From Sphingomonas sp. Ag1 (GTDB taxonomy: Bacteria; Pseudomonadota; Alphaproteobacteria; Sphingomonadales; Sphingomonadaceae): DNA of 64,000 nt. Within the stretch, counting starts at the first letter, position 1; each line of letters starts with the position of its first letter. The stretch spans positions 372,001-436,000 of the forward strand of contig NZ_LAZX01000094.1 in the NCBI RefSeq assembly GCF_000980895.1. Reading direction: 5' to 3'. Below, one piece after another: positions 50,266 through 53,555 of the stretch. The position numbers and the translations under genes are program-made. Below the pieces are notes generated by a model. The model did not search any database. It was not told the DNA's origin and was given only the letters and a program-made list of their open reading frames with translations.

Positions 50266-51573
50266 TCAGGTCTCTGCCGCTCCTGCGGAACGCTCGTTGA
50301 AGCGGGCGAAGTCACCGGGCGCCATGCGCACTTCATAGATGGCTGTATCACCCTCGATCACCTGATCGATGACCTCGCCATGTTGGTGCAGCCACGCCGC
50401 ACCGGCGCCGTCGCTGGTGGCGAGACGGATCGAGTATCGCTGATGCCCCTGCGTCAACCGGTCGGATAACAGCCGGACAAGTTCATCGACCCCTTCCCCC
50501 TTGATCGCGGACAGGGGAACCACATCATCGCGACGCGCCGCCTCGGCGAGCAGATGATCCCGATCGGGTCCATCAAGCAGGTCGATCTTGTTCCAAGCCT
50601 CGATCCGCGGCGTCGCCTCCGACACCCCGATCTCTGCCAGCACCGCCTCCACATCCGCCTTCTGCGCAGTCGTATCGGGATGTGCCACGTCGCGGACATG
50701 GACCAGCAAGTCAGCGGAGATCACCTCTTCCAGCGTTGCCTTGAACGCCGCGACAAGTTGAGTCGGCAGTTCCGACACAAAGCCGACGGTGTCCGACAAG
50801 ATCGCCTTGTCGATGCCCGGAAGGCTGATCTGACGAAGCGTCGGATCGAGCGTCGCGAAGAGGAGGTCTTCGGCCATTACATGCGCGCCGGTGAGGCGGT
50901 TGAAGAGCGTCGATTTACCCGCGTTGGTATATCCGACAAGCGCGATGACCGGCCAAGGCGCGCGTTGACGGCGTTCCCGGTGAAGGCCGCGCGTACGCGT
51001 CACCTGATCGAGCTCGCGCCGCAACCGTGCCATGCGATCCCGGATCAGTCGCCGATCGGCCTCGATCTGCGTTTCGCCGGGGCCACCGAGAAAGCCGAAG
51101 CCGCCGCGCTGACGCTCAAGGTGAGTCCAGCTGCGTACCAGCCGGCCCGCCTGATAATCGAGGTGTGCCAGCTCCACCTGCAGCCGACCTTCGGCAGTCG
51201 CAGCGCGCTCGCCAAAGATCTCCAGGATGAGACCGGTCCGGTCGATGACCTTTGCCTCTAGCTGAGTCTCCAGGTTGCGCTGCTGGATTGGGGAGAGCGC
51301 CGCATCGAACACGAACAAGGTGGCCTCTTCCTGCCGCCCGAGTGTCGCCAGCTGTTCAACCTGCCCCGATCCGATCAGCGTGGCAGCACGCGGCGTGCGC
51401 ACGCGAACGGCGTGCCGTTCGACGACATCGACGCCGATGGCGGCAGCAAGGCCGGCGGTTTCTTCAAGCCGCGCATCGGCATCGCGCGAGGAGCCACCAA
51501 GATCGGGGTACACGACGATAGCGCGCGCGCCCCGGGCGAATTCCTCGCGATCGCGGTCAAAACCGGTGCTCAA
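50266..51573 (-). CDS. hflX: GTPase HflX
   Basis: The 435-aa ribosome-associated GTPase splits stalled ribosomes under stress. The N-terminal domain holds the GSGQVEQL and [14 protein letters not shown] segments, and a coiled linker has [16 protein letters not shown]. The G domain has GYTNAGKST (G1), [11 protein letters not shown] (G3) and NKIDLLD (G4). The start is TTG 51573, overlapping the hfq stop as TTGA, so hfq-hflX are coupled as in many proteobacteria. Confidence 0.96.
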
Positions 51574-52061
51574 TCCTCGTCAGACCCGCTGTTCTCGTCC
51601 GCCAGGTTCAGCGCGCGAGCCGGCTGGATGGTGGACACCGCATGTTTGTAGACCAGCTGCGACGTGCCATCGCGCTGAAGCAGCATGCAGAACAAGTCAA
51701 AGGCGGCGATCTGGCCTTGCAGCATCACGCCGTTGACCAGGAACATCGTTACCGAATCCTCGGAGCGACGCACCGCGTTGAGGAAAATCTCCTGCAGCAG
51801 CGGCTGCTTCTTGGTCGATTCGCCCAGCTGATCGACGATTGCGGCCACATCGATCTGCGCGCCCGGCATGATCGTGGAAATCGCGTGCTTGTAGATGAGC
51901 TGGCTCTGTCCGTCGCGGCGCAGGAGGACCGAGAAATTGTCGAACCAGGTGACAATGCCCTGAAGCTTGACGCCCTTCACGAGGAAAAGCGTGACCGGGG
52001 TCTTCGACTTGCGCAGGGCGTTGAGGAAGAGATCTTGAAGAGAGCTTTGCTTATCGGCCAT
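51570..52061 (-). CDS. hfq: Tandem-domain RNA chaperone Hfq
   Basis: The 163-aa protein contains two complete Hfq (Sm) domains in one chain: residues about 5-66 and 86-147. The Sm2 motif YKH occurs twice (57-59 and 138-140), as do [18 protein letters not shown] and [16 protein letters not shown]. Domain 2 differs at the distal face (VNGVMLQG against VKGVKLQG in domain 1) and at the rim (RRSEDS against RKSKTP). The C-terminus is short and acidic. A single-domain Hfq is 65-100 aa, so this is a true fusion. The start is ATG 52061; the longer frame is rejected. Three chains could form a pseudo-hexamer. Confidence 0.97.
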
Positions 52062-52187
52062 CGTTCGATGCCCTTTCGTTTTTTTGGCGAGGTTTTCCCC
52101 GCGATGCGCCGGTGCCCGGCGTCGGATGCGGCCCAAACGGCACGCTTCGCCCTATGTAGGGAGCCGCCCGATACTGGTCCAGATCGA

Positions 52188-53555
52188 TCAATCCTCGCGC
52201 GTGTCCGTAATCCCCAGCAGCTTCAGCTTGCGGTGCAATGCGGAGCGCTCCATTCCGATGAAGGTCGCCGTCCGCGAAATGTTGCCCGAGAACCGGCGGA
52301 TCTGCACCTTCAGATATTCCCGCTCGAACGTCTCACGTGCTTCGCGCAACGGCGCGCCCATGATCGTGTTCGCACCGCCGCCCCCCTGATCGCCGAGCAC
52401 CTCCCCAGGTAACAGGTCGACATCGATCCGCGCGATGCGATCGCCCGGGGCAAGGATGATGGTCCGCTCGACGACGTTGCGCAGCTGCCGCACGTTGCCC
52501 GGCCAATCATAGGATTGCAGCGCCACCATCGCGTCGGTTGCGACTTCCGGCGTCGTAACCCGGCGCTGTGCCGCATAATGCGCGACGAAATGCTCCACCA
52601 GCGCGGGGATGTCCTCGCGCCGCTCCGCCAGCGACGGGATGACGACCGGCACCACGTTCAGCCGGTAATAGAGATCCTCGCGGAAGCGCCCATCGGCGAT
52701 CTCCTGCGTCAGATCCCGGCCGGTCGCCGACACCACCCGCACGTCGACCTTCACCACGCGCGTCCCGCCGACCCGCGTGAAGCTCTGATCCGTCAGCACC
52801 CGCAGGATCCGCCCTTGCGTCGTGATCGGCATGTCAGCGATCTCGTCGAGGAACAGCGTGCCGCCATGGGCCTGCTCCAAGAGACCGGGTCGAACGAGAT
52901 CGCCCCCCTCCTCCACGCCGAACAATTCCTCCTCGACACGTTCGGGCGTCATGTTGGCGGCACTGACCACAACGAAGGGCGCTGCGGCTCGCTGGCTCCA
53001 GCCGTGGAGGAGCCGCGCTGCCACTTCCTTGCCGACACCCGCGGGGCCGACGATCATCACTCGGCTCCCGGTCGCCGCCACGCGCTTCAACGTGGCGCGG
53101 ACGGCATTGATCGCGCTGGAGCTGCCCGTCAGGTCGGTATCGCTGCCGGCGGAGGCGCGAAGATTTGCCACTTCGCGGCGCAGACGCTCGGTTTCGGTTG
53201 CCCGCTCCACCATCAGCAGCAGGCGTTCGGCCTGAAACGGCTTTTCGATGAAGTCGGCCGCACCCTGCCGGATCGCTGCCACGGCCGTGTCGAGATTGCC
53301 ATGGCCCGAGATGACGAGGACCGGGATCGAGGAGTCCCGCCGCTTGATCTCGGCGAGTAGTTCCAGGCCGTCGAGACGCGAGCCTTGAAGCCACACGTCA
53401 AGCAGGACCAGGCTGGGGCGGCGCGCAGAGATCGCTTCCAGCGCGGCATCGCTGTCCGCCGCGGTGCGGGTGTCATACCCCTCGTCCTCGAGCACACCGG
53501 ATACGAGTTCGCGGATATCGAGTTCATCGTCGACGACAAGGATGTCTAACGCCAT
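52188..53555 (-). CDS. ntrX: Response regulator NtrX
   Basis: The 455-aa protein has a receiver domain (residues 1-120, phospho-acceptor Asp53 in LLDVWLQG), an AAA+ domain (Walker A GPAGVGKE near 168) and a C-terminal Fis-type helix-turn-helix (ISRTATFIGMERSALHRKL). The sigma-54 contact motif GAFTGA is absent: ELFGVEEGGDLVRPGLLE stands in its place. This fits NtrX proteins that regulate without sigma-54. NtrY, its sensor kinase, is encoded 3 bp upstream. The targets are probably nitrogen, redox and envelope genes. Confidence 0.95.
   Translation of the reverse strand: MALDILVVDDELDIRELVSGVLEDEGYDTRTAADSDAALEAISARRPSLVLLDVWLQGSRLDGLELLAEIKRRDSSIPVLVISGHGNLDTAVAAIRQGAADFIEKPFQAERLLLMVERATETERLRREVANLRASAGSDTDLTGSSSAINAVRATLKRVAATGSRVMIVGPAGVGKEVAARLLHGWSQRAAAPFVVVSAANMTPERVEEELFGVEEGGDLVRPGLLEQAHGGTLFLDEIADMPITTQGRILRVLTDQSFTRVGGTRVVKVDVRVVSATGRDLTQEIADGRFREDLYYRLNVVPVVIPSLAERREDIPALVEHFVAHYAAQRRVTTPEVATDAMVALQSYDWPGNVRQLRNVVERTIILAPGDRIARIDVDLLPGEVLGDQGGGGANTIMGAPLREARETFEREYLKVQIRRFSGNISRTATFIGMERSALHRKLKLLGITDTRED

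Follow-up and report, generated by a model that had tools for sequence, protein, structure and literature searches.

Small RNAs are paired with mRNAs by the RNA chaperone Hfq, whose proximal site holds the U-rich ends of RNAs. Work on the protein has treated it as a homohexameric ring, in which any mutation alters all six subunits together. A survey from 2002 reportedly covered the distribution of Hfq. In the Sphingomonadales, the passages of Yang et al. (2010, PMC2877685) considered here report two Sm-like domains in the Hfq of Zymomonas and of six other members of the order, raise the question of whether three chains suffice for a ring, and state that disruption of hfq lowers the stress tolerance of Zymomonas. 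In Sphingopyxis, Hfq together with the small RNA SuhB represses thn expression, according to a passage of PMC6563040. These phenotypes indicate that the doubled type of Hfq works in cells. A passage of PMC3474761 names Novosphingobium as one of the bacteria in which hfq-like genes occur in two copies, and the excerpts of PMC10725011, PMC9797736 and PMC7546472 hold no passage on two Hfq domains. The two-domain architecture is thus already known: the literature has it for Zymomonas and six further Sphingomonadales, together with the notion of a three-chain ring, and NCBIfam provides a model of it. A reciprocal split of the distal charge, a one-sided erosion of the rim and a single origin, all described below, were not found in the literature searched.

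We analyzed a 64,000-nucleotide stretch of Sphingomonas sp. Ag1 DNA (the window) that contains hfq and its neighbors. A preliminary description of this DNA had reported two complete Hfq domains in one polypeptide. Performing a profile search with PF17209, we recovered both of them (E 5.6e-30 and 3.2e-25; curated cut-off 27 bits) at the scores given in Table 1. The gene coordinates in that description were correct, while its domain ranges (residues 5-66 and 86-147) were a few residues off. The motif YKH occurs twice as described, at residues 57-59 and 138-140, and the quoted differences between the copies (16 protein letters, and RKSKTP against RRSEDS) are present in the sequence. The proximal YKH is accompanied by Q8 and F42 in each domain. 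The window protein also passed NF010691, the NCBIfam model for two-domain Hfq, over residues 1-161 (290.4 bits; cut-off 270 bits). The downstream gene is presumably hflX, and ntrX is named in part by similarity. The stop codon of hfq and the TTG start of hflX overlap at window positions 51570-51573, which suggests translational coupling. A promoter scan at hfq found none, with 0.2 expected.

Table 1. Coordinates of hfq, its parts and its neighbors in the window
Feature	Position	Strand	Basis or remark
hfq CDS, 163 aa, two Hfq domains	51570..52061	-	ATG at 52061, TGA ending at 51570
Hfq domain 1, residues 8-70	51852..52040	-	PF17209, 105 bits
Inter-domain linker, residues 71-88	51798..51851	-	Model: short helix at 72-79
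Hfq domain 2, residues 89-151	51609..51797	-	PF17209, 89.8 bits
Acidic C-terminal tail, residues 152-163	51573..51608	-	Tail charges across doubled Hfqs
Domain 1 distal turn, K29-G-V-K32 (E. coli 28-31), K and K	51966..51977	-	Column alignment
Domain 2 distal turn, N110-G-V-M113 (E. coli 28-31), N and M	51723..51734	-	Column alignment
Domain 1 rim patch, RKSK (E. coli 16-19)	52002..52013	-	Sequence and column alignment
Domain 2 rim, RRSE (E. coli 16-19)	51759..51770	-	Sequence and column alignment
GAAAGGG, Shine-Dalgarno-like, 9 nt upstream of hfq ATG	52071..52077	-	
ntrX, upstream neighbor of hfq	52188..53555	-	Named by synteny and similarity
hflX, downstream neighbor of hfq, TTG start	50266..51573	-	Putative name

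We surveyed 199 genomes of the window's family with PF17209 and found a match in 194, with two matches in 168 genomes and one match in 26. The five genomes with no match are 66-87% complete. This agrees with the remark in the preliminary description, and with the passages of PMC2877685, that other sphingomonads carry a duplicated Hfq. One of the 168 genomes (G007) has its two matches far apart, in 119-aa frames. These are equal-scoring single-domain matches near opposite contig ends (L030), 7% contamination is listed for the genome, and the pair is perhaps due to an untrimmed circular assembly. For the detailed comparison, we took 84 doubled genes, roughly one per genus (79 from the family search and five from the order search), and 57 single-domain controls (26 of the family and 31 from other families). 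Two PF17209 hits per chain, the search that had been proposed as a check, were found in one open frame in all 84 doubled genes. Outside the family, the order search matched 77 of 83 genomes, and only G199 showed two matches. Its listed match sits in a 91-aa frame, and its locus (L142) contains one domain, not a doubled one in a single frame. The phylum search outside the family matched 186 of 286 genomes, with two matches in G704, G875, G901 and G906; the best match of each lies in a frame of 85-101 aa, insufficient for two domains. Searching the class with NF010691, we found five of 385 genomes above the cut-off, all five from the window's family.

We then compared the two halves residue by residue, numbering the columns by what we take to be the E. 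coli Hfq sequence. Position 28 is K in domain 1 and N in domain 2 of all 84 doubled chains, and it is N in every single-domain protein (26/26 of the family, 31/31 of other families). At position 31, domain 1 carries K (83/84) or R (1/84), domain 2 carries M (84/84), and the singles carry K (57/57). The net charge at 28 and 31 is therefore +2 in domain 1, 0 in domain 2 and +1 in the singles, with no exceptions. The KK and NM pairs recur in domains 1 and 2, respectively, of all 80 named relatives (the best 80 of at least 576). Thus, the two distal differences that the preliminary description had quoted are fixed in both sets. Position 63 is Q in domain 2 (84/84) and M in domain 1 (80/84) and the singles (57/57). 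At rim positions 16, 17 and 19, the charge is +3 in every domain 1 (84) and every single (57); in domain 2 it ranges from -2 to +3 with a mean of +0.44, and 10 of 84 are still at +3. The proposed difference at the rim was thereby also borne out.

Both halves retain most of the proximal face. Q8, K56 and H57 are present in 84 of 84 chains in both domains, F42 in 83 of 84 in both, and Y55 in 84 of 84 first and 83 of 84 second domains. This face is not entirely unchanged, however: 32 of 84 second domains have E at position 9, and at position 41 N (82/84 first domains) gives way to L (78/84 second domains). The asymmetry of RNA binding that had been suggested for each ring face would therefore concern chiefly the distal face and the rim. 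Judged from these residues, the signature makes the idea of asymmetric RNA binding credible. The E. coli literature bears on the same positions. In excerpts of a preprint (PMC12262471), R16A nearly abolished the captured RNA chimeras, and K31A, mild in earlier assays, lowered them almost 4-fold. The acidic tail of E. coli Hfq binds rim residues R16, R17, R19 and K47, as stated in a passage of PMC5606850. In the simulations described in part of PMC8121710, distal RNA touches N28 and K31 through backbone atoms, and replacing their side chains may therefore have a smaller effect than the charge count implies.

Domain 2 is the more variable half. The mean identity is 0.87 among domain 1 copies and 0.74 among domain 2 copies, and the between-species difference of domain 2 is 2.0 times that of domain 1. 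Domain 2 is variable, yet its N28, M31 and Q63 are invariant, which points to constraint rather than decay. This fixed divergence of the halves probably means that each half handles RNA differently. The linker is 18-23 residues long in 83 of 84 chains, with a net charge of -3 to +4, and 83 of the 84 tails have a charge of -2 or below. Covariation between domain 1 and domain 2 was uninformative, with an effective number of sequences of about 27. The most divergent doubled Hfq (L123, from G077) is encoded in a 145-aa frame with a 14-aa linker, a weak domain 2 and a short, non-acidic tail; the 28/31 signature is nevertheless kept. We also observed a TLSARP-like motif in an N-terminal extension, 20-41 residues upstream of domain 1, in 36 of 84 doubled Hfqs (L071, L073, L119 and others). 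The 23 carriers present in the tree all fall in one clade of 24, whose 24th member (L188, from the same genome as L076) has the close variant KLTARPRP. The window protein lacks this extension.

Checking about 9 kb around hfq in 100 single and doubled loci, we found hflX immediately 3′ of hfq in 99 and ntrX immediately 5′ in 93, among the five genes sought. The doubled hfq thus occupies the ntrX-hfq-hflX locus, as the single-domain hfq of relatives does. Trees were built from joined HflX, NtrX, NtrY and MazG of 92 loci (60 doubled, 25 family single-domain and seven outgroups). Eight loci with 900 or fewer aligned positions (L169, L170, L175, L177, L195, L197, L237 and L238) were left out; four of them are doubled, and all four fall inside the doubled clade in a 100-locus tree. 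L169 offers HflX only and is misplaced there. L162 was considered as a doubled locus and rejected, its second match being weak and spurious, and was counted as single.

The 60 doubled genomes formed one clade, with the 25 single-domain family genomes outside it, in both FastTree and IQ-TREE. The doubled-only node received an SH-aLRT of 100 from IQ-TREE in fast mode versus 0.117 from FastTree, and the node uniting the doubled genomes with the single-domain L152 received 1.0 (FastTree) and 100 (IQ-TREE fast, SH-aLRT). The tails of most single-domain Hfqs contain an LFE/LFD motif (29/31 in the outgroups, 24/26 in the family), which occurs in none of the linkers or tails of the 84 doubled chains. 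L012, the Hfq from the genome of L152 (G017), is single and has N28, carries no LFE motif and ends in a PINLAEI tail like the doubled proteins. Owing to the FastTree value of 0.117 and the lack of LFE in L012, sister versus nested placement is not settled beyond doubt. This protein, the single-domain Hfq nearest the doubled clade, is a candidate for the pre-fusion state. We rejected secondary loss as the main account of the family's single-domain Hfqs, since all 26 have N28 like the outgroups, 24 of 26 keep LFE/LFD, and the 25 placed in the trees fall outside the doubled clade. The data are most simply explained by a single in-frame tandem duplication at the original locus, with the old tail lost afterwards. 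Domain 1 is as similar to its own domain 2 (identity 0.597) as to the domain 2 of other species (0.594), and there is therefore no sign of gene conversion. As the doubled chains have a single origin, the signature represents one set of events that was kept, not many independent ones.

Using AlphaFold2, we modeled one chain of the window protein from the alignment of 84 sequences (mean pLDDT 91.1, pTM 0.86). Each half of the model has the Hfq fold, an N-terminal helix and five strands, with a short helix in the linker. In fold searches, half 1 matched 6gwk (Z 10.2, rmsd 1.1 over 71 residues) and half 2 matched 7ogw (Z 8.9, rmsd 1.7 over 68 residues). The fold searches listed no solved doubled structure, which does not show that none exists, and in a PDB sequence search each of 35 sequences was matched in one stretch. 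The pTM of 0.86 fits two domains held side by side in a fixed arrangement, as we infer from that value.

Taken together, we favor, with a probability of roughly 0.7, the reading that the sole Hfq of the cell is a tandem fusion that would form a three-chain ring with three-fold distal and rim surfaces. Three chains would build a ring of six domains, with domains 1 and 2 alternating. The proximal core is kept in both domains, and going by established Hfq function, six sites for U-rich ends would remain. On the distal face, only domain 1 would carry lysines at 28 and 31 (+2, against 0 on domain 2), with no change in the ring total. The full basic annealing patch of the rim would always be on domain 1, being mostly lost from domain 2. 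Domain 2 alone would be followed by a free acidic tail, an element that restrains the rim patch in E. coli, so that strong patches and tails would each number three per ring. We would expect ordinary small-RNA work from it, with mRNA registers and annealing patches that are fewer and more widely spaced than in a six-fold ring. We give even odds to the fuller version, in which a single fusion gave rise to a three-fold Hfq, its RNA surfaces were divided between the halves, and the division then became fixed: domain 1 gained K28 and domain 2 lost K31, the unchanged distal charge being concentrated on alternate positions, and full rim patches and tails were cut to about three each.

The fusion might instead be neutral: the chains would form an ordinary pseudo-hexamer, one good copy per pair would be enough, and domain 2 would drift through changes with no positive role. 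The two-fold greater variation of domain 2 and its widely varying rim residues are in keeping with this, as is the support that the Hfq of such bacteria still gives to small-RNA regulation (in the passages of PMC6563040). However, M31 and Q63 are new and invariant in all 84 second domains and K28 is new and invariant in all 84 first domains; new residues that are subsequently kept run contrary to the prediction of drift, and we regard this explanation as unlikely, although it is the strongest of the rivals.

Slightly less plausible still is a stacked double ring, in which six chains would place six first domains in one strongly basic RNA ring and six second domains in another, weakly binding ring, tied by the linkers. 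Linkers of 18-23 residues (83/84) would in principle be long enough for this and would allow other assemblies too, each domain resembles a complete Hfq subunit, and the domain surfaces are distinct. Against stacking, the pTM of the model is in keeping with two domains in fixed positions relative to each other, and the distal charge shifts between the domains with no net change (+2 and 0 versus +1), as would best be understood if they contribute to the same face. We rejected, as barely conceivable, both an artefact of sequencing or assembly and a doubled gene that accompanies a normal hfq; nothing was found in favor of either. The preliminary description had named a stop or error between the domains and a separate single-domain hfq as possible objections. 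The frame of the window gene is free of stops there, no further PF17209 match besides the doubled hfq was found in the genome (G000), and the 84 examined genes share the architecture. Among the best 80 of at least 576 related stretches, all 80 align over residues 1-153 or more and hold both domains in a single open frame; the nearest named relatives among the matches listed are Sphingomonas (most) and Hephaestia.

If the fuller version, with its divided and fixed RNA surfaces, is right, Hfq function does not need six-fold distal and rim symmetry, and the RNAs bound by sphingomonad Hfq should have distal-face motifs with a matching, wider spacing. A natural fusion of two fixed, unlike halves would let alternate positions be altered separately, and the doubled Hfq would thus allow the number of distal, rim and tail elements required by an Hfq ring to be tested.

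Among described systems, ZMO0347 of Zymomonas mobilis and the proteins of six Sphingomonadales have two Sm-like domains per chain, like the window protein. Compared by its description in the passages of PMC2877685, where the domain-specific signature, the tree and the surface asymmetry are absent, ZMO0347 is of the same type. The window protein fits NF010691/PRK14091.1 (RNA chaperone Hfq, 176 positions), and no difference from it was found. The best solved relative is the Hfq of Caulobacter crescentus (PDB 6gwk), with 69% identity to half 1 over 71 residues; it has one domain per chain, unlike the window protein. E. coli Hfq, by the sequence used for the numbering, shares the proximal Q8, F42, Y55, K56 and H57, but it is a single-domain protein of six equal subunits and is one residue shorter after position 46.
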